From assembly GCA_029262055.1 (NCBI GenBank), contig JAJDAD010000091.1, positions 1 through 64,000 on the forward strand: 64,000 nucleotides of DNA, given 5' to 3'. The position numbers and the translations under genes are program-made. Shown here one piece after another: positions 20,032 to 59,160 of this stretch. Position 1 is the first letter of the stretch, and each line of letters starts with the position of its first letter. A model generated the notes under the pieces. The model was not told the DNA's origin and ran no database searches. It saw only the letters and a list, made by a program, of their open reading frames with translations. The stretch is from Candidatus Zhuqueibacterota bacterium. GTDB lineage: Bacteria; Zhuqueibacterota; Zhuqueibacteria; Oceanimicrobiales; Oceanimicrobiaceae.

Positions 20032-20428
20032 TTCGACCCTCCGATTTGCCACTACAAGAGGTTCCTACCTCAAGCTGGCGGTTATGGAAAAACTGTATTG
20101 AACAAAAATGAAGAGCGGGCCAGGAGAAAACGGACTGACTCCGCCAACGGGAAGAAAAAAATGTGGCGATTTTGCTTGCCAGGGGCAAAGCACAACCGGT
20201 GTAATCAACTACAATTGACCGGCACTTAGAATGAAATCTGGACGCAGGCCAATCCTTTCCTGAATTTGCACAAAATCAAGAACCAAGCTGTGTTACCACT
20301 GTATACTACAATCTTGTCGGGAAGATATTCCTGTTTCAAATCCCAAAGTGAGGTGTATGTGGAACAAATGGAAAATGCCGCGCCCGTTGCCATGCACCAA
20401 GTTTGCAGTGTTGGGGCGCTGCAATCTC
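20032..20428. other. 397-bp gap between the VCBS and beta-helix genes
   Basis: This is the leader region of the VCBS-protein gene on the minus strand. I see no hairpin terminator, repeat or credible small gene, and no convincing promoter. Its length suggests that the VCBS gene has its own promoter rather than depending on the beta-helix gene upstream. Confidence 0.4.
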
Positions 20429-42542: not shown

Positions 42543-43612
42543 TTGTCGAAGCAATAGATTTGAGCCGGGTCGACATGAATGCAGATGTCTGCGCTGCCCG
42601 GTTCCGGAACGGTCTCTTCGGCCAGGCTTTTTACGCGCAGAACTTCGGAGCCCAGCGTCACCTCCGAGTCGATGACCGAACCGGAAAATCTGACGCGCTG
42701 CAGATCGGCGCTAAAGACGTTGGGCAAGTCCACTGTTTTAGACACAAACTGAATGCTCTCGGGTCTGATGCTAAGAGTCACGGACGCTTGCGGCGCCGGC
42801 AGCAGGGATTCTGTCCGGGCGACGCGGAGTTTAACGTCGCTGGAAATGCTCACCAGCATTCCGTCCGCGTCGATCGCCTCGACCGTGCCGGACAGGACGT
42901 TCGAATTACCGACAAACCTGGCGACAAATGGATTCACCGGACTGCGATAAATCTCTGTGGGTGTGCCCACCTGTTGGCAAACGCCTTTGTCCATGACCGC
43001 GATCCGGTCGGACAGGGTCAGCGCCTCTCCCTGGTCGTGGGTCACGTAAATCGTGGTGATCCCCAGCCGTTTTTGCAGCTCTTTGATTTGATCGCGGGTT
43101 TCTTCGCGCAGCTTTGTATCGAGATTGCTCAGGGGTTCGTCCAGGAGCAGTATTTCCGGTTCGATAACGATGGCGCGCGCCAGGGCAACCCGTTGCTGCT
43201 GGCCGCCCGAAAGCTGGGTAACCGGTCTGGTTCCCAGGCCGCCGAGGTCGACCTGGATCAGCGCAGTGAGCACACGGTCCTCCTGTTCGCTGCGTTCAAC
43301 TTTCCGGGCCTGCAGGCCAAAGGCAACGTTTTCGAAAACAGTCATGTGCGGAAAGAGCGCAAAATTCTGAAACACCATGCCGGCATTGCGCAGATTCGGT
43401 TTTAAATAAGTCACCTCCCGGTCGTTGAACAAGATCTGTCCGGAGGACGGGAACTCGAACCCGGCAATCATGCGCAAGGTCGTTGTTTTGCCGCACCCGC
43501 TCGGCCCAAGCAAGCTAAAAAACTGCCCCTGCCCGATCTCAAAATCCAGATCGTCGACCGCCATGACTTCACCAAAACGCTTGGAGATGTGATGTAGAGA
43601 AACGCTGGACAT
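42539..43612 (-). CDS. ABC transporter ATP-binding protein, FbpC/PotA type
   Basis: A 357-residue ATPase with Walker A LLGPSGCGKTTTLRM near residue 34, signature LSGGQQQRVALARA, Walker B ILLLDEPLSNLD and switch histidine in VTHDQGEALTLSD. The C-terminal third is a TOBE-type regulatory domain (LSIRPESIQF). It drives the permease encoded by the next gene, with which it shares 4 bases. Of the possible cargos (iron, spermidine, thiamine, phosphonate), the neighbouring haem-monooxygenase-like gene favours iron. Confidence 0.9.
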   Translation of the reverse strand: MSSVSLHHISKRFGEVMAVDDLDFEIGQGQFFSLLGPSGCGKTTTLRMIAGFEFPSSGQILFNDREVTYLKPNLRNAGMVFQNFALFPHMTVFENVAFGLQARKVERSEQEDRVLTALIQVDLGGLGTRPVTQLSGGQQQRVALARAIVIEPEILLLDEPLSNLDTKLREETRDQIKELQKRLGITTIYVTHDQGEALTLSDRIAVMDKGVCQQVGTPTEIYRSPVNPFVARFVGNSNVLSGTVEAIDADGMLVSISSDVKLRVARTESLLPAPQASVTLSIRPESIQFVSKTVDLPNVFSADLQRVRFSGSVIDSEVTLGSEVLRVKSLAEETVPEPGSADICIHVDPAQIYCFDK

Positions 43613-43664
43613 GGAATGCTACGGGAGGTAAAAAGACAGGAAGAGCGCCGGGGTTCCTAAGCCT

Positions 43665-43997
43665 CTATTCGTCATCACCCGAACCCTTGCCCTGGGTCAA
43701 AACCACTGCAAAACCCTCGAACTCAGGGTGACCAAGATAAGTGCCCTCCGGTGCACGGGCCCGGGAGTGGGCCTTGGTAAAGCTCTCCGACTCGCGCCAG
43801 TTATCAAAGGCGGTCTGCGAGTCCCAGACCGTGTGCGAGGCAAAGAGCGTGTATTCTTCAGCCGCCGGCCCACGAAGCAGGTGAAACTCGCGGAACCCCG
43901 CAACCGAATCCAGGTGGGACTCGCGCTTACGCCACAACTCTTCAAACACGTCTTCCATTCCCGGGGTGATCTTGAAACGATTCATTGCAATAAACAT
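43665..43997 (-). CDS. IsdG/HmoA-type haem-degrading monooxygenase
   Basis: A 110-residue ferredoxin-like (ABM) protein; ATG at 43997 behind GAGGAG. The catalytic trio known from IsdG, Asn-Trp-His, is present at Asn6 (MFIAMNRF), Trp67 (FDNWRES) and His77 (TKAHSRA), at the same spacing as in the Staphylococcus enzymes. Such enzymes open haem and release iron. It lies between the binding-protein gene and the ATPase gene of an iron-type ABC importer, which strengthens the iron assignment for all four genes. An alternative is a quinol monooxygenase of the same fold. Confidence 0.8.
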   Translation of the reverse strand: MFIAMNRFKITPGMEDVFEELWRKRESHLDSVAGFREFHLLRGPAAEEYTLFASHTVWDSQTAFDNWRESESFTKAHSRARAPEGTYLGHPEFEGFAVVLTQGKGSGDDE

Positions 43998-44045
43998 CTT
44001 GACTCCTCTTGCAGGAAATTCCTATTTATAAAATCTGTGGCAATA

Positions 44046-45095
44046 TCAACCGCCCCCTGCTCCCCGGATATTCCTGTCCCAGTACTTCATCCACTCTTTT
44101 GAGTTGTCGGAAAAGACCTGCCAGTCGATTGCCATCGCCTCGATGTCGGTATCAGCGATCCAGGCGGGGAGACTACTTCTGGGAATGTCATTCCGGGCCG
44201 GAATACGAAAATACTCCCGGGCCTGCACCGAGAAACTCTCAGCGCTCGTTATGAATTCGTAGAATTCCCTGGCTAACTCCGGGTGTTTACAGTTCGCCAC
44301 GACGGCCAGACCTTCGATCAGAACCGGCGTGCCGCTTTGCGGGATTACGTAGTCGAAGGGATAATCGTATACCTGCTTTTGCAGTTCGATGTCCGGCATG
44401 TTCCACAGTGTCACCAGCGCTTCCTGCCGCGCGATTTGTAAATACATGAGCGTCGGATTGGCGGGATAGCTCTTGGTATTGGCATCCAGCCGTAGCAGCC
44501 AGTCATAACCCTGTTCAGGTGAACCGGTATCTTTGTAGAAACGCCAAATCATCGCGGAGTATATGGCGCGCATGGTCCCGGAAGCGAGCGGGCTGCGGAT
44601 CGCTATTTTATTGCGCCATTTCTCTGACAGCAGGTCGTCCCAGTCCTGCGGCGCAGTTTCCCGTGTCAGGACCTGAGAGTTAAACGTGATCACTTCGGGC
44701 GTGAGGAATGTGCCGTACCAAAGGTCGTGCGCATCATGCCGGCTCGAATCTATGGCGGCGGCCCAGGTTGGGCGGTATACCTGCAACAGCCCCTCTTCTG
44801 CTGCACTCATAAAAAACGAGGATGGCGCGCCCCACCAAAGGTCAGCCTGCGGATTGGCTTGTTCCGAGCGTATACGATCGAGGATATCCTGTGAACCCAT
44901 ATCGAGCCACTGCACCTTCACGCCGGGATTGTTCGCTTCAAAAAGGTCCGCGAAATGGCCGACCAATTCCTTGCCGTGCGGTGAATAGACGACGATTTCT
45001 TGTTGTGAATCCTGGTCGCCAGAACAACCGATGAGGAGGAGGCCCGTGAGGACCAACATGGTGAGCACAAACCTAAAAGAGCATGTAGACTGCAT
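44046..45095 (-). CDS. ABC transporter substrate-binding lipoprotein (FbpA-like)
   Basis: A 349-residue lipoprotein (TGLLLIGCSGDQ lipobox) of the type 2 periplasmic binding fold: EIVVYSPHGKELVGHFADLF opens lobe 1, followed by ILDRIRSEQANPQADLWWG and PSSFFMSAAEEGLL, a pattern shared by ferric-iron (FbpA/AfuA) and related 2-aminoethylphosphonate binding proteins. The first gene of the importer operon; no ribosome site is obvious at the ATG 45095. The iron-binding tyrosines could not be assigned with certainty, so iron is inferred from the operon. Confidence 0.85.
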   Translation of the reverse strand: MQSTCSFRFVLTMLVLTGLLLIGCSGDQDSQQEIVVYSPHGKELVGHFADLFEANNPGVKVQWLDMGSQDILDRIRSEQANPQADLWWGAPSSFFMSAAEEGLLQVYRPTWAAAIDSSRHDAHDLWYGTFLTPEVITFNSQVLTRETAPQDWDDLLSEKWRNKIAIRSPLASGTMRAIYSAMIWRFYKDTGSPEQGYDWLLRLDANTKSYPANPTLMYLQIARQEALVTLWNMPDIELQKQVYDYPFDYVIPQSGTPVLIEGLAVVANCKHPELAREFYEFITSAESFSVQAREYFRIPARNDIPRSSLPAWIADTDIEAMAIDWQVFSDNSKEWMKYWDRNIRGAGGG

Positions 45096-45502: not shown

Positions 45503-46693
45503 TTACGGCTGCTTCGGAATCTGTACTTTTCTCGCGTAGTAACCGACATCGAGTCTGCGCGTGGGGATGGTGCGGTCGCGCGCCTGTAATTGGATACGGT
45601 ACTTCCCAGGCTGCGGATCCTGCCAAACATGCGACCACAGCGACCAGGGCTCTGCCGGATCGCGCTGAAATGACTTGACCGGGACATACTCGGTTTTTCC
45701 CTTGAACCGAATAAGCAACGGGTCCGGAGCTTTCGTGCCGCCCCAGGCAAGCCCCGCGACCAGATACGCGATCTTGTCACGCACCAGCCATTGCTCAATC
45801 CGGATCGGCAACGCCGCAAAATCAATCACGGGCGGGATATAATCCTTGGCGAGCGCCGGCTCACCGAACTGATGGGTCTTGGACGCATACTCGATCATTT
45901 GACTGGTGGAAGGTGCATTCTCAGGCTCAAAGGTGATTTCGGAGATCCATTTGAGATGCGCGGCGGCATACATGCCGGGCACCACCAGCCGCACCGGGCT
46001 GCCGAAATCATTGGCGAGAGGAGTCCCATTCATTTCAGTCGCAAGGAAAGCGCTGCTCTCCTCAAGCTGCGACCAGGGAAAAAGCCAGCTCGCACCTTCG
46101 ACCGAATCCAGCCCCGGCTTCTTGTGCTTGTCAAAACCGGTGACTTTGATTAGACCATCTCTCGGAAAGTTGTACTTCTTGAGTATCTCAACCAGGGGTA
46201 TGCCGCTCCATTCGGCGACGCCCATCAAACCAAAATGGGAGTACAGATCATTGCCGGCGCATTCCAGCAGACATGGGCCCAGCGGGGCTGCTGCGGGGAT
46301 CAGCTCATCGATGGCCACGGTTTGTGCGCTGCCCTGGCCCGGAGCGATTTTTACCGGCCATGGCTGTAAGGCCTTCGGCAGGTCCGGAGTGCCCGTACGT
46401 ACGAAAAAAAGATCATTCGGGGTTGTTTGCCCGGAGGCCTTGACGGTGGCGAGATCGAAAAACTTGCGCGCATCCAGACCTTCGCCAATCAGTTGGTTGA
46501 ACGGCAGGTTTCCTTCATCGACGAACGGAATCGCGCGCAGAAACGTACCGCTCTTTAACGGGTCGAGATCTCCCTGGTCCTGGCATGACACGAGGGTCGA
46601 GAGAATAGAACCGCCCTGTAACACCGCCGCCGTGCCACCGACGCCGGCGCGGCCTACCTGTTTTAGAAATTCACGCCTGGTCAGCTTGCTCAT
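45503..46693 (-). CDS. Tat-exported sulfite-oxidase-family molybdoenzyme
   Basis: A 396-residue oxidoreductase. ATG at 46693 follows AAAGGAG. The N-terminus carries a twin-arginine signal (TRREFLKQVGRAG). The molybdenum-cofactor domain at about 90-270 has the Mo-ligating cysteine in CLLECAGNDLYSHFG and the cofactor-binding FFVRTGTPDLP. A C-terminal dimerisation-like domain follows (VRDKIAYLVAGLAWGG). Family members oxidise sulfite or reduce sulfoxides; there is no haem domain, so electrons must pass to a partner. The upstream operon encodes a multihaem cytochrome, a likely partner. Substrate not determinable. Confidence 0.88.
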   Translation of the reverse strand: MSKLTRREFLKQVGRAGVGGTAAVLQGGSILSTLVSCQDQGDLDPLKSGTFLRAIPFVDEGNLPFNQLIGEGLDARKFFDLATVKASGQTTPNDLFFVRTGTPDLPKALQPWPVKIAPGQGSAQTVAIDELIPAAAPLGPCLLECAGNDLYSHFGLMGVAEWSGIPLVEILKKYNFPRDGLIKVTGFDKHKKPGLDSVEGASWLFPWSQLEESSAFLATEMNGTPLANDFGSPVRLVVPGMYAAAHLKWISEITFEPENAPSTSQMIEYASKTHQFGEPALAKDYIPPVIDFAALPIRIEQWLVRDKIAYLVAGLAWGGTKAPDPLLIRFKGKTEYVPVKSFQRDPAEPWSLWSHVWQDPQPGKYRIQLQARDRTIPTRRLDVGYYARKVQIPKQP

Positions 46694-46768
46694 ATTTTCT
46701 CCTTTCCTCAAGGCTCAATTTGTTCATTGTTAAGATTCAAAGTAGGCAGGAAGCAACACAAACACCAG

Positions 46769-48568
46769 CTATTTCTCGCGCACGGTAAGCATCTGATTTA
46801 CGTCGACATTCTGCATGGTTTGTATCGTTCCCCCCGGCCACTTTACCACTATCGAATCGACTTTGGTGCGCTTGCCAAACCCAAAAAGCAAGCGCGGATC
46901 ATGATGGGACAGATAACTCGAGCCTCCCTGCAGTTGCTGGCGTTGGACCAACCCTGCGGACACGACCCTGACTTCCGCGCCGATGGCATCCCGGTTGCTC
47001 TGCACACCGACGAGCTTCAGCATGAGCCAGTTGTTGCTGTTCCCGCCGTCGTTGCGCAGAAGGTTTGGTGCATCACCGACGTTGGTCACCAGGATGTCCA
47101 TATCACCGTCATTATCATAATCGCCGAAAGCGGCGCCGCGGCTGACTTCTTCCTGCAAGAAGTCACGGGACATCCGGTCAGAGATCTCCCGGAAGACGAA
47201 AGGCGGCGTTGCGTCCGGACCGGAATTGTCAAACAACAGGTTCTTCTGCGCGTAGGTCCCGATGTCATCCCATTCCGCTATGTTGGTATTGATATGGCCA
47301 TTGGCGACAAAAATGTCCAGATCGCCATCATTATTGTAGTCAAAGAACCTGACTCCCCAGCCCAAATATCGCCAACTCGGTCGACCGATGCCGGTGGACA
47401 GAGCTACGTCCGCAAAAAGCCCGCTGCCTTCGTTCACGTACAGCGTGTTGGTCTCTCCCTGATAGTTGGTGACCAAGACATCCATCAGGCCATCCTGGTT
47501 AAAATCTCCAAAATCCGTCCCCATGCCGGCCTCGGCCTGGCCGGCCTCATTGTACCCGGCTCCGGTCAAAAGCGAAACATCTTTGAAAGAACCGTTGCCC
47601 TGATTCTCATAAAGGAAATTCCTGACCATATCATTCGCCACATAGATATCGACATCGCCGTCGTTGTCGTAGTCGCACACAGAAACCCCCAGGCCCTTGC
47701 CGGCGGGATTAAGAACGCCGGAGCTACTGGTGGCGTCGGTAAATGTAATTGACCCGTCAGCCTGCCTGCCGTTGTTGTGGTAGAGGACATCGGCTACGCC
47801 ATTATACGAGTCCGGGCCACAGTAAACCGGGTATCCCGCGATGCTGCAGTCCGTGTGCGTTTCCAAAGTGAAATCAAGATAATTGACCACGTACAGATCC
47901 AGGTAGCCGTCGTTGTCAAAATCCGCGAAAGCGCAGCTCGCGCCCCAGCCGGTATCTCCGACTCCGGCAAGTTCAGTGATATCCGTGAACGTGCCATCGC
48001 CATTGTTGCGATACAGAACGTTCGCGCCCAGGTTGGTAATGTAAAGGTCCTGGTCCCCGTCATTATCGAGATCGGCTGCGGCCGCTCCCTGACCGTACCC
48101 CGGGTGTCCGGCTCCGGAGACCGCCGTGACATCGCTGAACGTGCCATCGCCGTTGTTGCGGTACAAAACGTTGGTCGGCGCAGCCGCGGATGGCCGGTCT
48201 GCAAAGTCAGAGCTGTTGACCAGATAAAGATCGATATCTTCGTCATTATCATAGTCGAAAAAGACCGCGCCGGAGCCATTTGATTCCGGCAAATACTTCG
48301 ACCCGCTGGCGCCATTGGAATGCGTAAAATCGATCCCGGACTCGAGAGTGACATCCGTGAACTGCACTGCAGTTTCGTCCGGGGCTCCGCCGTCGGCGTT
48401 GTTGCTTTTTTCGGACGGTTCCACGTCGCCTCTACAGCCCAGGCTCAGGCACAGCAGGAAGATGAACGGCAGCAGCAAACGGCTGTATCCTCCGCAACTA
48501 TCTGGCTGTTTTGGATTTGTTTTGCAACAAGAAGAGTTCATGTTTTGCTTCAGTATGTTCAGGCTCAT
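46769..48568 (-). CDS. CRTAC1-like VCBS/ASPIC-UnbV lipoprotein
   Basis: A 599-residue protein. ATG at 48568 is chosen for GGGAGG before it; ATGs at 48604 and 48541 are alternatives. The lipobox is LLCLSLGC. A beta-propeller of Ca2+-binding VCBS/FG-GAP repeats follows (FFDYDNDEDIDLYLVNSSD, DLDNDGDQDLYITN, FADFDNDGYLDLYVVN and more). An ASPIC/UnbV domain (SSYLSHHDPRLLFGFGKRTK) closes it. It overlaps the end of the TPR gene by 71 bases. Related in layout to the protein at 50477-52309; the two bracket two TPR genes. Role unknown, perhaps a surface scaffold. Confidence 0.85.
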   Translation of the reverse strand: MSLNILKQNMNSSCCKTNPKQPDSCGGYSRLLLPFIFLLCLSLGCRGDVEPSEKSNNADGGAPDETAVQFTDVTLESGIDFTHSNGASGSKYLPESNGSGAVFFDYDNDEDIDLYLVNSSDFADRPSAAAPTNVLYRNNGDGTFSDVTAVSGAGHPGYGQGAAAADLDNDGDQDLYITNLGANVLYRNNGDGTFTDITELAGVGDTGWGASCAFADFDNDGYLDLYVVNYLDFTLETHTDCSIAGYPVYCGPDSYNGVADVLYHNNGRQADGSITFTDATSSSGVLNPAGKGLGVSVCDYDNDGDVDIYVANDMVRNFLYENQGNGSFKDVSLLTGAGYNEAGQAEAGMGTDFGDFNQDGLMDVLVTNYQGETNTLYVNEGSGLFADVALSTGIGRPSWRYLGWGVRFFDYNNDGDLDIFVANGHINTNIAEWDDIGTYAQKNLLFDNSGPDATPPFVFREISDRMSRDFLQEEVSRGAAFGDYDNDGDMDILVTNVGDAPNLLRNDGGNSNNWLMLKLVGVQSNRDAIGAEVRVVSAGLVQRQQLQGGSSYLSHHDPRLLFGFGKRTKVDSIVVKWPGGTIQTMQNVDVNQMLTVREK

Positions 48569-49517
48569 GTGCCAGGACCTCCCGGAAAGCAACCTCGGCT
48601 TCACCGGTTAGATCTACGTTAAGATATGCCAGTCCCAGGTGGTATTGGGCCGGAGTAAACATCGGGTCGAGTTGCAGGGCACGCAGGTGCGCGTCGATTG
48701 CTTCCAGGTGTTTGTCCTGCCGGGCGTATGCCAGGCCCACGTCAAAATGGGCCGATGCCCGTTTCGGGTTCCGGAGGACAATCGACCGGTACTGGTAAAT
48801 CTCCTCCCTTTCTGTTCGCAACTTCTCATATGTCTGTAACTCTTGCTCCCCCAAATCACGCTGGCCGGTACGCATGTATATATTGCCGAGATGATAATAT
48901 GCTTCAATAAAGTCCGGGTTAATGCTCAAGGCTTTCCTGAACGCCTGCAAAGCCTGCGGGTATTGCCCTTGCTTGCCGTGCAGCATGCCCAGGCCGAAAT
49001 GGACTTCGGGACGTTGCGGTGCAAGTGCGAGGGCTTTGCTAAAGGCCGCAAGGGCGTCATCGTATTTCCCGCGGTCTAAAAGAAGCCGCGCCAGGCCGTT
49101 GTGAGCTTCCGCCAGCTCCGGGTTAAGAGCGATCGCTTTTGTCAGCTCTTTCTCCGCGGCAGAGTCCTGGTTGCGCTCATAGTAAAGCAGACCGAGTTTG
49201 CCGTGCGCTAAGGCAAAATCGGGGTCAAGTTCAACTGCTCTCAGGTAGGATGCCTCTGCCTTACCCAGCACATTTTGCCCCACGTAACACAATCCCAAAT
49301 AGTAGTAGATTTTTGCGGCGTTCGGGTTGGTTTCCAGGATTCTCTCGAAAGCCCTTACCGCGTTGAAGTACCGCTCTTGCTGTAGGAGCTTGATGCCCCT
49401 GCTGAGCTGCTCCTGCGAGACTGTGCTGCCCACCACGGGCCCGGATTTTTCCTTCTCGGGAGAACACCCGGACAAGAGAAAAATCAAGACAATAAAAAAC
49501 AGTTTCCGGTGCACCAT
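48498..49517 (-). CDS. TPR-repeat lipoprotein
   Basis: About 339 residues. The ATG at 49517 gives a typical lipoprotein signal (VLIFLLSGCSPEKE); a TTG at 49538 is possible. At least seven TPRs follow (AKIYYYLGLCYVGQNVLGKA, FALAHGKLGLLYYERNQDSA, AEAHNGLARLLLDRGKYDDA, EAYYHLGNIYMRTGQRDLG). These helical repeats bind peptides or partner proteins. Its position between CRTAC1-like genes, with overlapping ends, suggests it works in a complex with them at the envelope. Confidence 0.85.
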   Translation of the reverse strand: MVHRKLFFIVLIFLLSGCSPEKEKSGPVVGSTVSQEQLSRGIKLLQQERYFNAVRAFERILETNPNAAKIYYYLGLCYVGQNVLGKAEASYLRAVELDPDFALAHGKLGLLYYERNQDSAAEKELTKAIALNPELAEAHNGLARLLLDRGKYDDALAAFSKALALAPQRPEVHFGLGMLHGKQGQYPQALQAFRKALSINPDFIEAYYHLGNIYMRTGQRDLGEQELQTYEKLRTEREEIYQYRSIVLRNPKRASAHFDVGLAYARQDKHLEAIDAHLRALQLDPMFTPAQYHLGLAYLNVDLTGEAEVAFREVLAHEPEHTEAKHELFLLQNKSKTAR

Positions 49518-49610
49518 GCTAACAATCGGTCTGGACAATTCCTAGTAAAACCGCAAATAGAAAGTTAAATCTGCCGGGCGCTGTCATTTTGCAGCAGCCT
49601 CCGGCTTCGA

Positions 49611-50480
49611 TCAAAGGTTCTCCCCCCTTGCTATTCGGCTAAGAAATGCATCCACAGCCTGATATTTTGGGTCGGTCTGGTCCTGCAGGGTCGCTTCATC
49701 CAGTGCGGCTAACTCCATGATGAATGAAGCAAAAGGGGAAACTTCCACTGATACGTGAAATACTTTCCCGGACTTGGTGTCACCCTCTCCCGGAACACCG
49801 GTAGCAGACTTCATCGGGGCGCTGTGTTTGCGTGCCTGACGCAGGAAAGCTGTTGCCTCCGCCGGCTCACCTCTTTTCCAGGCAAGGTAGCCCCTCAGAA
49901 AGTACGCCTCCACACTTTGCGAGTTGGAACCTATCACATTCTCGAGGTAAGACTGTGCCAGGGGCAGGTCTCCCTGCAGCAGCGCGGTCTCTCCCAGCCG
50001 CAGCGAAGCGCCGGTTTCCTCCTTGTTGATAGCCAGCGCCTGCTTGAACGCAAGCTCAGCTTTGTCCAGGTCAAAAAACGCCGCGCTGTCAAACCTCAGA
50101 TAGAGATTGCCTAACTGTAAATGTGCACGAGCGTTGGTCGCGTTAACCGTGAGCAACTCTTCCCACAGGCGTTCGGCCTTGTCAAACTCACGAAGTTCAA
50201 AGTACATGTTACCCAGATAATACAGAGTATTCTCGTGCACTTTGTTGAGCGAAAGCGCCTGCTCATACTTTTGGGCCGCCGCTGCGATTCTGCCGGCGAT
50301 GCGTTCGGTGGTGGCTTCTCTGTAAACCTGCCAGAATGCTTCCACCTTACGTTTCTCAGCCGGAGAAATCCCAGCGCTCTCGCTTGACGCCGTCTGTCCG
50401 GGCGATGTGATTTTCCGAACGGTGATCCCCAAAAACAGCAACAGAATAGCTGCCCCTAAAAAATAAGCTGCACGCTTCAT
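49611..50480 (-). CDS. Membrane-anchored TPR protein
   Basis: A 289-residue protein with an N-terminal helix (FLGAAILLLFLGITV) that may serve as anchor or signal, followed by TPRs at about residues 55-215 (ENTLYYLGNMYFELREFDKA, ARAHLQLGNLYLRFDSAAF, TGASLRLGETALLQGDLPLA). The start overlaps the stop of the CRTAC1-like gene by ATGA, so the two are translated together. No enzymatic part was seen. Confidence 0.82.
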   Translation of the reverse strand: MKRAAYFLGAAILLLFLGITVRKITSPGQTASSESAGISPAEKRKVEAFWQVYREATTERIAGRIAAAAQKYEQALSLNKVHENTLYYLGNMYFELREFDKAERLWEELLTVNATNARAHLQLGNLYLRFDSAAFFDLDKAELAFKQALAINKEETGASLRLGETALLQGDLPLAQSYLENVIGSNSQSVEAYFLRGYLAWKRGEPAEATAFLRQARKHSAPMKSATGVPGEGDTKSGKVFHVSVEVSPFASFIMELAALDEATLQDQTDPKYQAVDAFLSRIARGENL

Positions 50481-52309
50481 CTCTGCAGAGAGTCAGAGCC
50501 TATGTTTGAACCTTCCCCCTCGATCACACTCAGAACCTGGTTGGCCGCAAGGCCAGTGAAAATCTGTGTCCGGCCGCTTAGCCATTCGATCTCGAGCGTG
50601 TCGACTTTACTGTGAGTGCCGACGCCGAAGTGGGACACAAGACTGTTTTGGGAACAGTACGAGCTTTGCGCGCCCACTTGTTGCACCTGGACCGAATTTC
50701 CGGTCACGAGACGCAGTTTCGTGCCAATGGCTGAACGATTTGATTTGCGTCCCTGTACAAATACCTTCAGCCAGTTCTTTTGTTCCCCGCCCTCATTGCG
50801 CAGCAGAATTCCAGGGCCGCCATTATTGAGAACGAAAATATCGATATCGCCGTCGTTGTCATAGTCCGCAAACGCGGCGCCACGGCCGACGTATTGCTGC
50901 GCAAAATACTCGCCACTGACTGATGAAACATCGAAGAAGCCTTCTTGTCTTCCCTTATCCCAAAATAATTTGGACGGCATGGGCTGCAACAACCAGGGCA
51001 TGTCCTTTTGCTGAAATGTACTCCCGTTTGCCACAAACAGGTCTTGCTTGCCATCATTGTCATAATCAAAAAACGACGTGCCCCAGCCGATGAAGTCGAG
51101 CGCGATCTGACCCAAGCCATAACGATCCGCCTCATCCGCAAATTTTACTCGCCGGCCGCGAGCGACGGCTGCGCTGGCGAATTGTGCCGACAAATTGCTG
51201 TACAGCGCATTTTCCTGAGCGATCCAGTGGGTGATAAACATATCCATGTCGGAATCGCCGTCCCAGTCGCCGACGGCAATGCCCATTGCACCGCGATAAT
51301 CCGAAACCCACGAGTCATTGCCATTTTCGTGGAACTTGCCATCCCCGGTATTGATGAAAAAAGAGTTGTCGGAAACATCATTCGCAACATAAAGATCCGG
51401 CCACAAGTCTCCGTTAAAGTCACACCACGCTGCAGACAGGCTGCGGCCGTTTTGATCTGCTACCCCAGCCAACATCGCAACTTCGCTAAAGGTGCCATCG
51501 TGGTTGTTTCGGTAAAGTAGGTTGCGCTCAGGTGAAAATGAGGAAGGATTGATGCTCGACGGCACCTCTGTGTCATATTGTAGACTGCTTTGATTTGACT
51601 CTGCCGTATATTTGACATAGCCACAAACATACAAATCCAGGAATCCGTCGCGGTCATAATCCGCCCACGAAGCACCGGCCCAGAATCCCTTTTGACCACC
51701 GAGCCCAGCCTGTTTCGTCCAGCCGGAAAATGTGCCATCGCGATTGTTTTTGAACAGGAGATTTTCGCCGTAACTGGTGACAAACAAATCCGTCCAGCCG
51801 TCATTATCGTAATCTCCCCAGGCGGCTGCCATGCCCCAGCCGCGATAATCCACGCCTGCGGCTGCGCTGACTTCGGTGAAAGTACCGTCGCCATTATTAT
51901 GGTAAAGCTCGCAGTGCGCCGTCGAGGCTTGCAACTCCCCGGGAGTCAAATCCAGTGAGCCGGCCATGTTAACCACAAAGAGGTCCTGCCAGCCGTCATT
52001 GTCGTAGTCGGCCCAGGCCGCACCGGAACCCATGTCTTCGGGAAGCTGAGTTGTGCGCCTGCCGGAAAAGTGTATGAACGTAAGGCCCGCTTCGGCGGAA
52101 ACATCCTTAAAGCGCACTCTCGGGTAGTCAGAGGGAATTGTACGGTCGAGATCGGAAGTAAGGCCGGCAATGTTCTCCCCCGGCCGGTACGGGGCTTCAG
52201 GCGTAAAGCTAATCAGAACAACCACCGTGGTTATGACCGCGAGCAGGATCGCGGCGATAACCACAGTGAACAGGACTCGGCGCTTTCGGCGTGGAAGAGT
52301 CGGAAGCAT
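50477..52309 (-). CDS. CRTAC1-like VCBS/ASPIC-UnbV protein with membrane anchor
   Basis: A 610-residue protein. A positively charged start and one hydrophobic helix (VLFTVVIAAILLAVITTVVV) tether it to the inner membrane. Repeats with Ca2+ loops make a propeller (WADYDNDGWQDLFVVNMAG, WGDYDNDGWTDLFVTSYGE, WADYDRDGFLDLYVCGY, FFDYDNDGKQDLFVANGS). An ASPIC/UnbV domain follows (SSYCSQNSLVSHFGVGTHSK). The start is 3 bases past the stop of the cytochrome gene, so it is tightly coupled to it. Compared with the lipoprotein paralogue at 46769-48568, this one stays in the inner membrane. Confidence 0.85.
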   Translation of the reverse strand: MLPTLPRRKRRVLFTVVIAAILLAVITTVVVLISFTPEAPYRPGENIAGLTSDLDRTIPSDYPRVRFKDVSAEAGLTFIHFSGRRTTQLPEDMGSGAAWADYDNDGWQDLFVVNMAGSLDLTPGELQASTAHCELYHNNGDGTFTEVSAAAGVDYRGWGMAAAWGDYDNDGWTDLFVTSYGENLLFKNNRDGTFSGWTKQAGLGGQKGFWAGASWADYDRDGFLDLYVCGYVKYTAESNQSSLQYDTEVPSSINPSSFSPERNLLYRNNHDGTFSEVAMLAGVADQNGRSLSAAWCDFNGDLWPDLYVANDVSDNSFFINTGDGKFHENGNDSWVSDYRGAMGIAVGDWDGDSDMDMFITHWIAQENALYSNLSAQFASAAVARGRRVKFADEADRYGLGQIALDFIGWGTSFFDYDNDGKQDLFVANGSTFQQKDMPWLLQPMPSKLFWDKGRQEGFFDVSSVSGEYFAQQYVGRGAAFADYDNDGDIDIFVLNNGGPGILLRNEGGEQKNWLKVFVQGRKSNRSAIGTKLRLVTGNSVQVQQVGAQSSYCSQNSLVSHFGVGTHSKVDTLEIEWLSGRTQIFTGLAANQVLSVIEGEGSNIGSDSLQR

Positions 52310-52312
52310 AAA

Positions 52313-54400
52313 CTACCAAGTCCCCCGGGTTTTTGCCACTTTTATGATTCTCTCGTCTTCGGAAATGACTGTAATGGGTGCAGTCACACCGGATTCCTCA
52401 CCGAGCAGGAAGTTCAGCAGGAACTGGTCGATCTTGCGGTATTTCAGTTTAGCATTAACGTGCAGCTCCGACAAATTGGTGGCAGGCAATTCAAATTGAA
52501 ATGACTCGGGAGGCAGCCCTTCGCCGTCGGAAGCCGTCATGCTGGACGGACAGGGAAAAGCAAATTCCGCCCGGTCGGAAAAACCAGGAAACAGGGCCCG
52601 CCGGAAACGCACGCCGACCATTTCCCACAGGTTGTGCCGGTCAATAAGGTTGCCATACTGGTCGACAGCTTCAGCTTTGAAAATGAAGGCGCCGGGCTTG
52701 ATGAAGTTTCGGTCGTCGATGCCGCCGGAATGATAGACCAGACGCCCACTCTCGTCCTTAACGGTCAGCTCGACCCAGGCCTGAATAATGTCCAGTGGTC
52801 CGGTGGGAAAGTCATGCCCGACCTTGTTGTTGATCATGTTCGCCACGACCTTGACTTTCTCACCAGGTTTAACTTCCTCCGGGACGTCCAGTGTGATCGG
52901 GACGGCAGGTCCTTTCTGCCACTTATCAGCTATTTCCGGTATGTCGAATTCTCCCTGCAGCCATTGCTCGGTGAGCGCCGTATGTTCGTCGGCACCCGGC
53001 AGGCCGAGCAACTTGGGCACAAACTGATTTGCTGCCAAAAAGCGGTGGCTGCGGTGTTTGCCATCGTTGGTGTTGCGATTGTAGTCCAGCGCATCGCCAC
53101 TGGCAGGGTCTTTTGAGTCGGTCAGTGGCATGTGGCACTCGCGGCACTCGACGGTTTTTTCCGGATCATCGGGATGGTTCCAGCGGCTCTTGCGCCAGTT
53201 ATCGTACTGATTCTGCAGTTGCACCCACCCGACGTTGTTTACTTCCTGGTCGATAAACTGTTTATGGCATGCCGCGCAAAACTCGGGACTTTTGAAAAGG
53301 CGATGCTGCAGACTCTCGATGTGCTGCTTCGGATAGGCACGGATAAGAAAATCACTAACTATCTGGGCCGCCCGTCCCTCATGCAACTCAAACATATAGC
53401 GCTTCGGTTGTGTCATAACATAGTTGGCATTGCCTTTTATGTCTGTCTCTTTGATTGCGTGGCACGCAATGCAGGAGACGCCTTCCTGATAGCCGGCCAA
53501 ATTCGTGAGGTTGTCATTGAAAATATTCTTGGCACCAGAAAACAGGGAAATCGGGTCGTGACAGCCGCCGCAGTAACGGGTGGACTCAGCTCCATTCTGT
53601 TTTGCCATCACTTCCTGAACAGCCTGAAATGCCGGATCTTTGGCCGAATAAGCGTGTGCGCTCACCTGCCACTCCGAAACGATCTCTTCGTGACACCCTG
53701 AGCGACCACAACCCTCTGAGCCAGACAGCGAGCGCGTATCGAACGCACCCCCGGTTGACGTGTTTGCCAGACTGGGTGCGAAAGGCCGGTCAGGGCCATA
53801 GAGGTAACTGTAGTCCTCCGGAAACTCATTCTGCAGTTGCAACGGCTCATAAGCATACGTGAACAGGCCGACCAAAACAAATAAAAGGACTGTGGCGAGA
53901 ATTGTCTGCAGGCCATAACTTTTCTCTGCGGCTGCTACGGCATTCATTGCCTCCGTACGCGCACTTCGATAATCGCGCCACCAGATCAAGACGATATGTG
54001 GCGTCAAGAAGGCAATCAGAGCAAACGTAGCAATAATGTGGACCAGGTCCCACGCGGGCCCAATTCGATATTGAAACAAAGCCTGGAAAGTCAAAACCAG
54101 GCCGGAAATGACCGCCGCAATGGTGATTGCCATTGCCAAGTAACCGGTCAGCTTAAGATGAGTCATGCTTTGACTGCGATAAATGAGCCAGTGCCGAATC
54201 TGGTACCATGCAAAAGGAATAACGAAAACCAGACCAAGGACTGTGTGCAATATCACCATTGTCTGGTTTGTGACATTGAATGGTAACAGGTAAATTGCCA
54301 GGCCGGTCAAGGTCTCAAAAAGCAAGAAGCTAGAAACAAAAATGACTAATTTCTGTTGCCACTCTGATGACCTGGACCCCTTGTTCGTCGATTCCTTCAT
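52313..54400 (-). CDS. Membrane cytochrome b-like / multihaem cytochrome c fusion
   Basis: A 695-residue redox protein; ATG at 54400 behind TTGGGAG. Residues about 15-185 hold five membrane helices with histidines at places fit for b-haems (MVILHTVLG, IRHWLIY, LVHIIATF, TPHIVLIWW). The outer part then carries five c-haem motifs between about residues 230 and 440: an atypical CGRSGCH (CX4CH), and CGGCH, CIACH, CAACH and CRECH, in the style of cytochrome c554. The last 230 residues are a beta-rich domain with NNKVGHDFPTGPLDI. It would move electrons between the quinone pool and periplasmic partners, possibly the molybdoenzyme of the same operon. Confidence 0.85.
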   Translation of the reverse strand: MKESTNKGSRSSEWQQKLVIFVSSFLLFETLTGLAIYLLPFNVTNQTMVILHTVLGLVFVIPFAWYQIRHWLIYRSQSMTHLKLTGYLAMAITIAAVISGLVLTFQALFQYRIGPAWDLVHIIATFALIAFLTPHIVLIWWRDYRSARTEAMNAVAAAEKSYGLQTILATVLLFVLVGLFTYAYEPLQLQNEFPEDYSYLYGPDRPFAPSLANTSTGGAFDTRSLSGSEGCGRSGCHEEIVSEWQVSAHAYSAKDPAFQAVQEVMAKQNGAESTRYCGGCHDPISLFSGAKNIFNDNLTNLAGYQEGVSCIACHAIKETDIKGNANYVMTQPKRYMFELHEGRAAQIVSDFLIRAYPKQHIESLQHRLFKSPEFCAACHKQFIDQEVNNVGWVQLQNQYDNWRKSRWNHPDDPEKTVECRECHMPLTDSKDPASGDALDYNRNTNDGKHRSHRFLAANQFVPKLLGLPGADEHTALTEQWLQGEFDIPEIADKWQKGPAVPITLDVPEEVKPGEKVKVVANMINNKVGHDFPTGPLDIIQAWVELTVKDESGRLVYHSGGIDDRNFIKPGAFIFKAEAVDQYGNLIDRHNLWEMVGVRFRRALFPGFSDRAEFAFPCPSSMTASDGEGLPPESFQFELPATNLSELHVNAKLKYRKIDQFLLNFLLGEESGVTAPITVISEDERIIKVAKTRGTW

Positions 54401-55384: not shown

Positions 55385-56230
55385 CTATGCCGTCTTTCGC
55401 CGTTTTCTTGTTTCGGCGCCCGCCTTCTTGCCCGTGGCTCTTTTCATCGGCTTTTTTTCTGCTGCTGCTTGCTCGATACTCGCCTTCAGCGCCGTCATAA
55501 TGTCGACCACCGGTTGTTCTTCTTCCTCGATGGCGACCACTTCCTTTCCGTCGATCTTTTGCGCGATTAGTTCCTTGACCGCATCTTTGTAAGTGTCCCG
55601 TAGCTCGATCTGGTCGAAAGACTTGCTCATGGAGTCGACCAGAGTCTGAGCCAGTTTGAGCTGATCTTCATCCGCTACAGCATCATCAAGCTGTGGCACA
55701 TCTTTGACCGCCCGCACCTCCTGCGGATAGCGCAGTTTGTACATGATCAATCCACCGTCCGCATGCGGCGCCATCAGCATGACGCTCTCGCGATCACGCA
55801 GCACGACCTTTCCGATCCCGAGCTTGTTGCTGCGTCGCAGAGTCTCACAAAGCAAGGCGTATGCTTTGGAGGCGACCTCCCCGTCAGGCCCGGCAAAATA
55901 GGGCGCATCGTATAGCGTCGCCGGGACCTCGGATGCATCCACGAAGCCCTGGATCTCAATGACCTTCGTGCTTTTGAGCTTCAGCTTCTCCAGATCGCCC
56001 GGTTTGATGATAACGTACTGGTCGGGTTCATATTTATATCCTTTGACCAGATCTTCCTGCTTGAGAACTTCATCGCATTTCTTGCAGCGTTTCTCATATC
56101 GGACCGGGCTGTTGTCGTCTTTGTGAAGCTGATTAAAACGAATGGTTTCTGCGGTTTCTATGGCATTATAAATCCGCACCGGGATGGTTACCAGTGAGAA
56201 TCGAATATGGCCTCTCCAAATAGCTCGCAT
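55385..56230 (-). CDS. ku: Bacterial Ku DNA-end-binding protein
   Basis: A 281-residue homodimeric ring protein that binds double-strand breaks and recruits ligase D. The start ATG at 56230 (MRAIWRGHIRFSLVTIPVRI) is the conserved bacterial Ku opening; upstream in-frame codons are unlikely, and GAGGG precedes the ATG. Other family marks are RYEKRCKKCDEVLKQEDLVK, YALLCETLRRSNKLGIGKVV and DQLKLAQTLVDSM. The Lys/Arg-rich tail (AEKKPMKRATGKKAGAETRK) is typical of Ku with DNA-threading activity. It shares an operon with ligD. Confidence 0.95.
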   Translation of the reverse strand: MRAIWRGHIRFSLVTIPVRIYNAIETAETIRFNQLHKDDNSPVRYEKRCKKCDEVLKQEDLVKGYKYEPDQYVIIKPGDLEKLKLKSTKVIEIQGFVDASEVPATLYDAPYFAGPDGEVASKAYALLCETLRRSNKLGIGKVVLRDRESVMLMAPHADGGLIMYKLRYPQEVRAVKDVPQLDDAVADEDQLKLAQTLVDSMSKSFDQIELRDTYKDAVKELIAQKIDGKEVVAIEEEEQPVVDIMTALKASIEQAAAEKKPMKRATGKKAGAETRKRRKTA

Positions 56231-56275
56231 AGGTACCCTCGCAAATACGTAGCTTACAGACAATTGAATTAAGTC

Positions 56276-56304
56276 AAACTACTTGATATTATTTAAATTG
56301 TCAA
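56276..56304 (-). promoter_or_regulatory. Possible internal promoter for ku
   Basis: A perfect TTGACA (56304-56299 on the minus strand) is followed after 17 bases by TAGTTT, a weak -10. GACAATT here and AATTGTC near 56253 form a 7-bp inverted repeat that could be an operator. It would allow ku and the TPR gene to be transcribed apart from ligD. Confidence 0.3.
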
Positions 56305-56344
56305 GCTAAACCAGACTGCCCTGCACGGACTTCTAGGGCCGGGG

Positions 56345-56779
56345 TTAGTAGCCTTGTCCATGCCTTTCGGCCCAATCGCTTAGAGTGCCTAAGTCCTCAT
56401 CGGATAATTTTGCCTGCGGATGCAGGGGCAGGTAAAACCACAAAGGCATGGACCCCGCCTCCACTTCTTCCCGGATTTCCGACCAGATGCCACGCCTTTC
56501 CTCTACTGAATACCGACTCCAGGTAGAAAAATTGAGGTGCTCCCTTGCTTCCGTTATATCATGGACTACCAGCCATGAGACCGGTGCGACATAACCATAC
56601 CAGGGCCACTTGCTTTCATGCGAATGGCAATCGTAACAGGAACGCTCGAGAATATCCCGAACCAGGACCGACGCGACAACTTCTGATTCGACCGGTGGAT
56701 TACTGCGGTCCACAGGAACGAATTGGATAGCGATCAAGATGATTCCTAAGACGGCTAATGCCCACTTGACGACTTTCAT
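56345..56779 (-). CDS. Haem-binding-domain (Haem_bd) cytochrome c-like protein
   Basis: A 144-residue exported protein; ATG at 56779 behind GGGGAG. A hydrophobic N-terminal helix (KWALAVLGIILIAIQFV) acts as signal or anchor. The domain has the single c-haem motif CYDCH followed by SHESKWPWYGYVAPVSWLV, the hallmark of the Haem_bd family, and the HLNFSTW block. Periplasmic, role unknown. Its insertion between ligD and ku, DNA-repair genes of the cytoplasm, is unexpected. Confidence 0.88.
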   Translation of the reverse strand: MKVVKWALAVLGIILIAIQFVPVDRSNPPVESEVVASVLVRDILERSCYDCHSHESKWPWYGYVAPVSWLVVHDITEAREHLNFSTWSRYSVEERRGIWSEIREEVEAGSMPLWFYLPLHPQAKLSDEDLGTLSDWAERHGQGY

Positions 56780-56829
56780 TCTGTGCTCCCCTTATTGGTT
56801 GCATTTGTGTGCGCCACACAATGGGCAAG

Positions 56830-59160
56830 TTATTGTTCCTGTAAGTCCGGCCGCAGCCTGACAAAAACCGGCTCACGGTAAGTGCCGTTCTTAGTTATGG
56901 AGGCGTACTCAATCTCACAATACAGCCTGGGCTGAAGCCAGACGGTATTCGCGTTGTCGGGTGGTTTCTCCTCGACCGGACGCTTTGCGGTTTCTATTTC
57001 CTGAACCGCGCTAAAAACGCTCTTCAGCAGATTGCTGTCGAACCCCGTTCCGACTTTGCCGCGATAGATGAGCTGGGCCTCATTTCGCTGTGCCAATTGC
57101 AGCGCGCCGAACGCTGTCGCGCGCCCGCCTCTACCTTTGGTATATCCGATGATCAGACATTCCGTGGTCTGACGCGCCTTGATTTTGTACCAGTTCCCGC
57201 TGCGTTTACCGGGCAGGTATTTGCTGGTACAGTCCTTGGCGACAATTCCTTCCAGCCCCATCTGGCGGGATGCCTCAAACAATTGCTTACCGGTCGTCAC
57301 GTATTCGCTTACACGATACGGCGTGTCTCTCTTGATAGTATCCGTCATCCACTCGCGCCGACGTATCAGCGGATCGTTGGTCAGGTGGCGGCCATCCAGA
57401 TAGAGACAGTCGAAGATGTAACATACGACCGGATTCGTTTGCCGGGCGCGTTCAATTGCGCCTGCGCTACGCAGCTGCATCCGCTTGATCACCTTCCTGA
57501 AATCCGGGCGTCCAGCCGGGTCGAGGCAGACTATCTCGGCATCAAATAACGCCGACGTCGCCCGAAAGGCCTGCTCCGGCACCAACAGCTCAGGAAAACT
57601 GTCGGTGATGTCGTTCTGATTACGGCTTCGAATACGTAACTTGCCTTCGTCCAGGGAAAACAAAGCCCTAATGCCATCCCATTTCACCTCATAGATGTAG
57701 TTTTCCCCGACGGGGGGATTCCTTAAACTCTGTGCGAGCATCGGATCTATTTCATCCTGCAGCCAATCGATCTGGGAAGTGTCCAGACGCTCCAAAAGCC
57801 ACTCGTTTCCCTTTGTCTGATAAATTCTGTACTCGGCGCTTAACTCCTTACTCTGCAGGCGAAAATACATGCCGTCCTTCTTTTTCTTGGTCACCTCGTA
57901 CTTTCCGAGCGCGTATATCCACATCATCCCCCCGCCGTATTCACCCTTAGGGATTTCACCCTCAAACGTCAGGTATTTCATAGGGTGATCTTCAGTCTGC
58001 ACTGCCAGCCGCTTGATGCCCGGCCGGGGTGGCAGGCCGCGCGGGACGGCCCATGATTTGAGTGTGCCATCCTGCTCCAGGCGTAAATCGTAGTGCAACC
58101 GGCTGGCGTGATGCCGATGAACCACAAAACCGTTCCCTGCTCCGACAGCCACCTCGGCACTGGGTTCAGGCGTGCGGGAAAAGCTGCGCTTCTTTGCATA
58201 AACATCCAACGCTTCGGGCGTCTTTCTCTTCCCTGAGGGGGGTAAGCTGACAGCTTGCGGCGCTGCAGCAGGTTTCTCTGTGTGTAAATGCGCAGCGTAG
58301 GCCCCGATCCCTTCCCATGCATCGCCTTCCTTGATGACTCGCTCAACAACATTCCGTACATCAAACTCAGCGGGGCTTTGCACCCGTTCTAATTCTTCCC
58401 ATGTCAGCGGCATAGAGACCGGCGCACTGCCACTGCCGCGCAAACTGTACGGCGAGACGATCGATTGTCCGGCCCGGTTACGGTAAATGTCGATGAGTAT
58501 TTTCCCTTTGCGCGCATCTTTCTTGATGTGTAAAGTCGTGGATTGGCTGTTTGCGGACACAAAGGGCTTGGCCATGACGAGCGCAGCTTCAAACACGGTA
58601 GGGAAGTCCCATTTTGCCTGAACCGGTACGACAATGTGCAATCCTTTGCCACCGGTCGTCTTGACAAATGGAAAGTAACCATACTGTTCTATATGCTGCT
58701 TCAGCCTAAAAGCAACTTCCTGCACACGCCCGAAGACCTCACCTTCCGGCGGATCCAGGTCGAAAACGAAATAGTCAGCATGCTGAAAATGCGGGCTGCG
58801 GCAATGATACTGGTGAATCTCGAGGCAGGCTAAATTCGCCAGCCAAACCAGCGAAGCATCCTCGGTCGCGATAATGTAGTCAGGGTCCTTGCCTTCACCG
58901 AGTTTAACATGCTCCAGCCAGTCAGGTGTCCAACCTGGTCTGTTCTTCTGGAAAAACCGTTCGCCCGCCACACCATCAGGAAAACGCACCAACGACAATG
59001 GACGCCCCTTAATGTGACTTAAGATAGTCGGCGCGATTTTAAGATAGTACTGGACCACCTCGGCCTTAACCACCCCGGTTTCCGGGAAGAGAATCTTTTG
59101 CAGATTCGATAGATCGATCCTGCGCTTCCCAACCTGTACAAGCTGTGACGTTCTGGCCAT
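56830..59160 (-). CDS. ligD: Multifunctional DNA ligase D
   Basis: A 776-residue end-joining enzyme in the order polymerase - phosphoesterase - ligase. The primase/polymerase domain (about 1-300) has YFVFDLDPPEG with the metal-binding DxD and KTTGGKGLHIVVPV. The 3'-phosphoesterase (about 335-480) has FVVHRHHASRLHYDLRLE and GEYGGGMMWIY. The ATP-dependent ligase (about 485-776) has the nucleotide-accepting lysine in YEVKWDGIRALF, DAEIVCLD, EGIVAKDCTSKY and WYKIKARQT, and a C-terminal OB domain. With Ku it repairs double-strand breaks. All key residues look intact. It is the first gene of the operon with the Haem_bd, ku and TPR genes. Confidence 0.95.
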   Translation of the reverse strand: MARTSQLVQVGKRRIDLSNLQKILFPETGVVKAEVVQYYLKIAPTILSHIKGRPLSLVRFPDGVAGERFFQKNRPGWTPDWLEHVKLGEGKDPDYIIATEDASLVWLANLACLEIHQYHCRSPHFQHADYFVFDLDPPEGEVFGRVQEVAFRLKQHIEQYGYFPFVKTTGGKGLHIVVPVQAKWDFPTVFEAALVMAKPFVSANSQSTTLHIKKDARKGKILIDIYRNRAGQSIVSPYSLRGSGSAPVSMPLTWEELERVQSPAEFDVRNVVERVIKEGDAWEGIGAYAAHLHTEKPAAAPQAVSLPPSGKRKTPEALDVYAKKRSFSRTPEPSAEVAVGAGNGFVVHRHHASRLHYDLRLEQDGTLKSWAVPRGLPPRPGIKRLAVQTEDHPMKYLTFEGEIPKGEYGGGMMWIYALGKYEVTKKKKDGMYFRLQSKELSAEYRIYQTKGNEWLLERLDTSQIDWLQDEIDPMLAQSLRNPPVGENYIYEVKWDGIRALFSLDEGKLRIRSRNQNDITDSFPELLVPEQAFRATSALFDAEIVCLDPAGRPDFRKVIKRMQLRSAGAIERARQTNPVVCYIFDCLYLDGRHLTNDPLIRRREWMTDTIKRDTPYRVSEYVTTGKQLFEASRQMGLEGIVAKDCTSKYLPGKRSGNWYKIKARQTTECLIIGYTKGRGGRATAFGALQLAQRNEAQLIYRGKVGTGFDSNLLKSVFSAVQEIETAKRPVEEKPPDNANTVWLQPRLYCEIEYASITKNGTYREPVFVRLRPDLQEQ

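Follow-up and report, generated by a model that had tools for sequence, protein, structure and literature searches.

The 64,000-nucleotide stretch of DNA analyzed here (contig JAJDAD010000091.1 of a Candidatus Zhuqueibacterota bacterium; hereafter the window) belongs to a 5.7 Mb assembly of 114 contigs and contains, between positions 45503 and 54400, six open reading frames (ORFs) that all lie on the minus strand. We find that this is a composite operon, in which the first three genes, which encode a membrane b-c cytochrome (CYT), a membrane-anchored protein of the CRTAC1 family (CRTA) and a membrane-anchored tetratricopeptide repeat (TPR) protein (TPR1), are a conserved module, probably an undescribed electron-transfer complex. 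Three bases (TTT) separate the stop codon of CYT (52313-52315) from the ATG of CRTA (52309), and CRTA and TPR1 overlap in an ATGA (50477-50480).

The strongest evidence for the module comes from gene order in other genomes. With a cytochrome alignment as query, a scan that took one genome for each species returned at least 576 relatives, of which we compared the best 80 from named organisms, with flanks of up to 10 kb. These loci span at least 12 phyla, although most are metagenome-assembled and individual phylum labels may be wrong; among the taxa are Marinimicrobia, Krumholzibacteriia, Bacteroidetes, Rhodothermus, Fodinibius, Gemmatimonadetes, Planctomycetota, Acidobacteria, Latescibacterota, Chloroflexi, Lentisphaeria, Opitutaceae and gammaproteobacteria including Thiomargarita. 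Three contigs end at CYT; in all 77 remaining loci a CRTA homologue lies downstream of CYT in the same orientation; the two genes almost always overlap or stand only a few bases apart, and a single locus (L126) has one gene, for a six-haem protein, between the two. Since the loci were picked by the cytochrome alone and none by CRTA, this pairing is not circular, and such an order of genes is far more than chance would give, with only 16 UnbV_ASPIC domains in the whole 5.7 Mb genome of the window. Six apparent exceptions (L103, L123, L127, L134, L142 and L150) proved to be artefacts of the ORF filter, with CRTA recovered by tblastn. When 77 genomes of the Fodinibius family were tested reciprocally, six had CYT and exactly those six had CRTA orthologues, adjacent in each case and neither ever alone; the orthologues score 810-868 bits, the next best protein 464 bits, and the chance of two matching sets of six among 77 genomes is about 4e-9. 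The distances within the two families are also strongly correlated (Mantel r 0.82), with none of 2000 permutations as high and none above 0.22. Judged by these sequences, CRTA is an obligate partner of CYT.

The distribution of the module is patchy. It occurs in two of 61 well-assembled genomes of the window's phylum, and the CYT tree shows phyla partly intermixed, a combination that is suggestive of spread by transfer or of repeated loss. Fodinibius sediminis DSM 21194 (G079, locus L129) is among its carriers. Remnants were seen as well: one genome (G052, locus L040) has a truncated CRTA without CYT, and another (G027, L035 9411-9905) has a disrupted CYT in which the membrane domain is joined to a small part of the haem region and stop codons occur. 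The latter adjoins an asparagine-synthase-like gene, a radical S-adenosylmethionine (SAM) gene and a CRTAC1 gene, and the same pair of asparagine-synthase-like and radical SAM genes recurs close to intact modules at L075, L112 and L113. A further related protein occurs near the module in three loci (L095 6249-8423, L126 8509-10404 and L128 6551-8398); its copy in L126 carries six CXXCH motifs and is located between CYT and CRTA.

The third component is more variable in its arrangement. Of the 80 loci, 22 encode a CRTA with a TPR1-like domain fused to its C-terminal end, and 25 have that domain in a separate downstream gene; it is absent from 19, and 14 are not assessable. All 28 separate third-gene proteins that we aligned match TPR families. 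A family of paralogous cytochromes, moreover, ends in TPR repeats of its own; a CRTAC1 gene comes after it in seven loci (L034, L036, L038, L039, L040, L041 and L051; in L039 with one extra gene in between). The TPR domain has thus been fused in two different ways, to CRTA and to a paralogous cytochrome, and this argues well for a joint function of the three parts. Beyond them, no family of genes within 10 kb is shared by more than four of the 80 loci, and among 88 flanking near-neighbour proteins no family has more than three members. Cytochrome paralogues with a C-terminal TPR domain were also seen in other neighbourhoods that lack a CRTAC1 neighbour (L043-L049), some of them near heparinase-like or glycosyltransferase genes, an odd setting for a pentahaem cytochrome.

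We then focused on CYT itself. The protein contains five haem-c motifs, one CX4CH (residues 231-237) and four CXXCH (277, 310, 375 and 419), and ends in an immunoglobulin (Ig)-like beta domain. Across the 83 sequences on which conservation was judged, the five motifs are invariant except in single fragments, and so are four histidines of the membrane domain (H52, H70, H121 and H135) wherever this region is present. Six more histidines outside the haem motifs (H249, H360, H449, H452, H529 and H589) are invariant or nearly so and are candidates for the distal ligands. The AlphaFold model (mean predicted local distance difference test score, pLDDT, 82.5) begins with five long helices, followed by a haem region that is alpha-helical and by the beta domain, with H52 and H70 on helix 2 and H121 and H135 on helix 4. 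Both of these helices are predicted to run from periplasm to cytoplasm, so that H52-H121 and H70-H135 would lie at matching depths, and positive charges fall in the predicted cytoplasmic loops, a pattern that fits a cytoplasmic N-terminus and a periplasmic haem domain. This geometry is that of a di-haem b transmembrane wire, for which two haems b are predicted; a b561-type domain is a candidate for this region, which has the four invariant histidines and five helices but stays below the cut-offs of the DUF4405 and Ni_hydr_CYTB profiles (for DUF4405, 24.5 bits against 26.7 in a relative, and an E value of 0.0016 in the window). The only Protein Data Bank structure that matches the fold of CYT with an E value below 0.001 is the pentahaem cytochrome c552 5ze8 (E 1.5e-10), at a moderate template modelling (TM) score of 0.62 on the target, and 5ze8 is also the best sequence match (E 3e-07). 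The five motifs, the Ig-like domain and the fold place CYT with the pentahaem cytochromes (PHC, ExtKL and cytochrome c552). It reaches 25 bits against a cut-off of 250 for the NCBIfam ExtKL equivalog NF040886, which indicates that it is related to ExtKL by fold and is not ExtKL itself. Taken together, CYT is predicted to be a seven-haem membrane cytochrome with two haems b and five haems c.

Its partner is clearly a member of the CRTAC1 family. Against a curated UnbV_ASPIC cut-off of 23.4 bits, CRTA scores 70.2 and the second CRTAC1-like protein of the operon (CRTB) 77.1 bits, and FG-GAP and UnbV_ASPIC are both matched by 48 of 48 aligned CRTA orthologues. The top Foldseek match of the CRTA model (pLDDT 90.9) is murine CRTAC1 (9etn; E 6.8e-30, TM 0.67/0.74). 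In the CRTAC1 tree CRTA forms a supported clade of its own, with CRTB in a separate subtype. CRTA has a single N-terminal membrane helix with PRRKRR just before it, and an inner-membrane anchor is predicted for each of CYT, CRTA and TPR1. A general rule that CRTAC1 proteins accompany multihaem cytochromes was rejected: in a control, most other CRTAC1 genes of the window genome are not near multihaem proteins and have non-redox neighbourhoods.

Sequence and computation have given the conserved pair, the fusions with TPR, candidate haem ligands that are invariant, the folds and three predicted membrane anchors. On these grounds we consider it fairly probable that the first three genes encode a quinone-linked electron-transfer complex of the inner membrane, with CRTA and the TPR protein as docking subunits. 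In such a complex, the N-terminal domain of CYT would hold two haems b, both placed between helix 2 and helix 4, one ligated by H52 and H121 towards the periplasm and one by H70 and H135 towards the cytoplasm. This domain would exchange electrons with the quinone pool and pass them to the five c-type haems of the pentahaem domain in the periplasm. The calcium-type propeller CRTA would be kept beside CYT by its own membrane helix and, together with the TPR domain, may form a platform on which the haem chain is offered for docking to an exchangeable partner in the periplasm. Oxidation of quinol by CYT, with transfer to a periplasmic acceptor, appears to be the most likely direction. Replacement of complex III is disfavoured, as module-bearing genomes (G000, a Fodinibius genome and G005, the nearest relative with the module, whose cytochrome is 73% identical) also have NrfD-type genes and haem-copper oxidases, so that the module is better seen as an accessory. 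Several points weigh against an electron-transfer complex of this kind. The putative b-haem domain of CYT is below every Pfam cut-off, and as the AlphaFold models carry no haem, its ligation is inferred. TPR is missing from the 19 loci counted above, and the neighbourhoods of CRTAC1 genes in the window genome show that a redox partnership is not general among CRTAC1 proteins. Finally, no gene for a partner enzyme or a substrate is conserved alongside the module in the 80 loci.

The direction of flow could also be the reverse, from a periplasmic oxidation (for instance by a hydrazine synthase (HZS)-like di-haem enzyme or a periplasmic dehydrogenase) through the c haems and b haems to the quinone pool. 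In the closest named relative, a Marinimicrobia locus (L072 16735-22067), CYT, CRTA and TPR1 run contiguously into two more CRTAC1 genes, a gene for an HZS_alpha-domain protein and one for an HZS-beta-gamma-like protein that is cut by the end of the stretch; in addition, genes read as GMC-type oxidoreductases lie within 10 kb in four of the 80 loci, and one stands beside the paralogous cytochrome in L040. With HZS-like genes directly after the module in L072, we leave this direction a small but real chance. However, L072 is alone among the 80 loci in having HZS-like genes, the linkage to GMC genes is rare, and the window has neither kind of gene; its operon contains no homologue of HZS-alpha or HZS-beta-gamma, and the single HZS_alpha domain of the genome is located on another contig (C44). 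Still less probable is that CYT is itself a catalytic reductase with one c haem open to a small substrate, in which case CRTA and the TPR protein would be structural. The pentahaem family has enzymatic relatives such as NrfA; NarG-type and NapA-type genes (by reading) each occur in the wider neighbourhood of four of the 80 loci, and NnrS is found in two near neighbours. Against this, the six conserved histidines outside the motifs suffice as second ligands for all five c haems, and the fold match 5ze8 is named a low-potential cytochrome in a reference listed by PMC11976967.

The initial annotation had instead proposed that all six genes specify an envelope-spanning redox assembly in which a molybdoenzyme exported by the twin-arginine translocation (Tat) pathway (MOLY) delivers electrons to the cytochrome. 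Much of its description was confirmed: the order and common strand of the genes and their close junctions can all be read in the sequence, including a 71-base overlap of TPR2 and CRTB (48498-48568; provided that CRTB starts at ATG 48568, which has GGGAGG upstream), and its family assignments agree with the Pfam domains, namely PF13435 (cytochrome c554-type) in CYT, FG-GAP_3 and UnbV_ASPIC in CRTA and CRTB, TPR repeats in TPR1 and TPR2, and PF00174 in MOLY. The proposed redox association also finds strong support for the cytochrome, the CRTAC1-like protein and the TPR protein, in the conserved gene order, reciprocal presence and absence, and fusions. No such support extends to MOLY, and gene order in relatives is kept for genes 1-3 but not for genes 4-6. 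None of the ORFs in the 80 loci matches MOLY, and no homologue is detectable in the G005 genome, where unrelated genes come after TPR1. Its two good homologues elsewhere (in G007 and G064) are both away from the CYT module; the homologues at L053, L054, L182 and L183 are unlinked to it. Nor do TPR2 and CRTB follow the core in other genomes. We conclude that TPR2 and CRTB are a second, lineage-specific CRTAC1-TPR pair outside the conserved core, which would have been gained in this lineage, and that MOLY is only a local addition beside the module. In favour of the larger unit, the six genes share a strand, the 75-base gap between the CRTB stop and the MOLY ATG (46693) contains no predicted terminator or promoter, MOLY may share the transcript, and CRTB-related CRTAC1 proteins adjoin TPR proteins elsewhere too (L189, L192 and L193; in L189 also beside genes for five- and eight-haem cytochromes). 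Comparison of genomes nevertheless leads us to reject the six-gene unit, which is largely refuted for MOLY and which we regard as very improbable. Least credible of all is a role in adhesion, surface structure or cofactor assembly with incidental haems: FG-GAP/CRTAC1 and TPR domains are frequent in surface and assembly proteins, and the other CRTAC1 genes of the window genome have the non-redox settings described above, but the haem motifs and four membrane histidines are kept in essentially every CYT, which points to electron transfer, and CRTA and TPR1 are predicted to have inner-membrane anchors and not to be exported lipoproteins.

MOLY itself belongs to the sulfite oxidase family (PF00174, 81.6 bits against a cut-off of 24). 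Its ECAGN aligns with the CAGN of sulfite oxidase, in the region of the molybdenum-ligand cysteine, and it stays far below the cut-offs of the NCBIfam equivalogs SorA (52 against 600 bits), SorT (51 against 570) and MsrP (29 against 207). A Tat motif (TRREFLK) precedes a lipobox-like LVSC, so that MOLY may be a Tat lipoprotein. Promoter-like sites were found in none of the main intergenic gaps, their number in the region is at the level given by shuffles, and an Rfam search gave no matches.

Table 1. The six genes of the operon, in order of transcription (positions in the window)
Feature	Position	Strand	Evidence
CYT, membrane b-c cytochrome, 695 aa	52313..54400	-	Pfam, alignment, model
CRTA, CRTAC1-like FG-GAP propeller with UnbV_ASPIC, membrane-anchored	50477..52309	-	Pfam, model, neighbourhoods
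TPR1, membrane-anchored TPR protein	49611..50480	-	Pfam, alignment
TPR2, TPR lipoprotein, lipobox LLSGC, likely start ATG 49517	48498..49538	-	Pfam, sequence
CRTB, CRTAC1-like lipoprotein, lipobox SLGC, subtype separate from CRTA	46769..48568	-	Pfam, tree
MOLY, sulfite-oxidase-type molybdopterin protein, Tat signal and LVSC lipobox, local addition	45503..46693	-	Pfam, alignment

Elsewhere in the window, a third CRTAC1-like gene (18208-20052), with a FlgD-like C-terminal sorting-type domain, is unrelated to the operon. An ABC transporter (binding protein, ATPase and permease; 40839-45095) occurs with an ABM-domain protein that resembles small haem-degrading monooxygenases (43665-43997), a set that could serve iron or haem handling. 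On the other side of the operon, Ku-like and LigD-like genes (by reading, end-joining repair; 55385-59160) flank a PF14376 haem-binding protein (56345-56779).

It is tempting to speculate that the module represents a class of quinone-linked complexes with two haems b and five haems c, patchily distributed over at least 12 phyla, in which an anchored CRTAC1 propeller is an obligatory subunit; we hold this wider proposal tentatively, as little short of evenly balanced. If true, it would give a bacterial CRTAC1-family protein its first molecular role, with CRTAC1 and TPR proteins docking multihaem chains, and would connect multihaem electron transfer in bacteria with a protein family known chiefly from vertebrates. 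The two- or three-gene module offers a defined target for probing bacterial CRTAC1 function, with the caution that the adjacent molybdoenzyme is not to be read as a member of the complex.

Among known systems, CbcL of Geobacter is an inner-membrane b-c fusion in which a di-haem b domain and a multihaem c domain carry electrons from quinol to the periplasm. Compared by description, it shares the idea of the b-c fusion with CYT and differs in its multihaem domain and haem number; to our knowledge, it has no CRTAC1 or TPR partner. The haem-c region of CYT resembles Thermochromatium tepidum cytochrome c552 (5ze8) and the ExtKL/PHC cytochromes of Geobacter and cable bacteria, which likewise have five c haems and an Ig-like domain and which PMC11976967 groups with archaeal cytochrome nanowires. 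CYT differs from them in its N-terminal five-helix b-type domain, its CX4CH first motif and its CRTAC1 partner. A CRTAC1 gene inside HZS-like operons was described in PMC12758564, and we observed the same arrangement in three genomes of the window's phylum (L187 790-6577, L190 4470-11104 and L191 4074-9695), where a CRTB-related CRTAC1 gene lies between HZS-alpha-like and HZS-beta-gamma-like genes, the HZS-beta-gamma homologue of L190 carrying ten CXXCH motifs. In the literature, of which coverage was partial, this was the only relevant report linking CRTAC1, UnbV, FG-GAP or ASPIC to multihaem cytochromes, and we found no published description, name or function of the CYT-CRTA-TPR module, whose novelty is thus unproven. 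Those operons resemble the module in having a CRTAC1-family gene among the genes of a multihaem c-type complex, but the CRTAC1 protein is of another subtype and is partnered by homologues of HZS-alpha and HZS-beta-gamma instead of a membrane b-c cytochrome. Finally, CRTA shares the FG-GAP propeller and UnbV_ASPIC domain with cartilage acidic protein 1 (CRTAC1, 9etn) and the bacterial ASPIC/UnbV proteins, and is set apart from other CRTAC1 proteins by its own clade, its N-terminal membrane anchor and its occurrence only with CYT in the 77-genome test.

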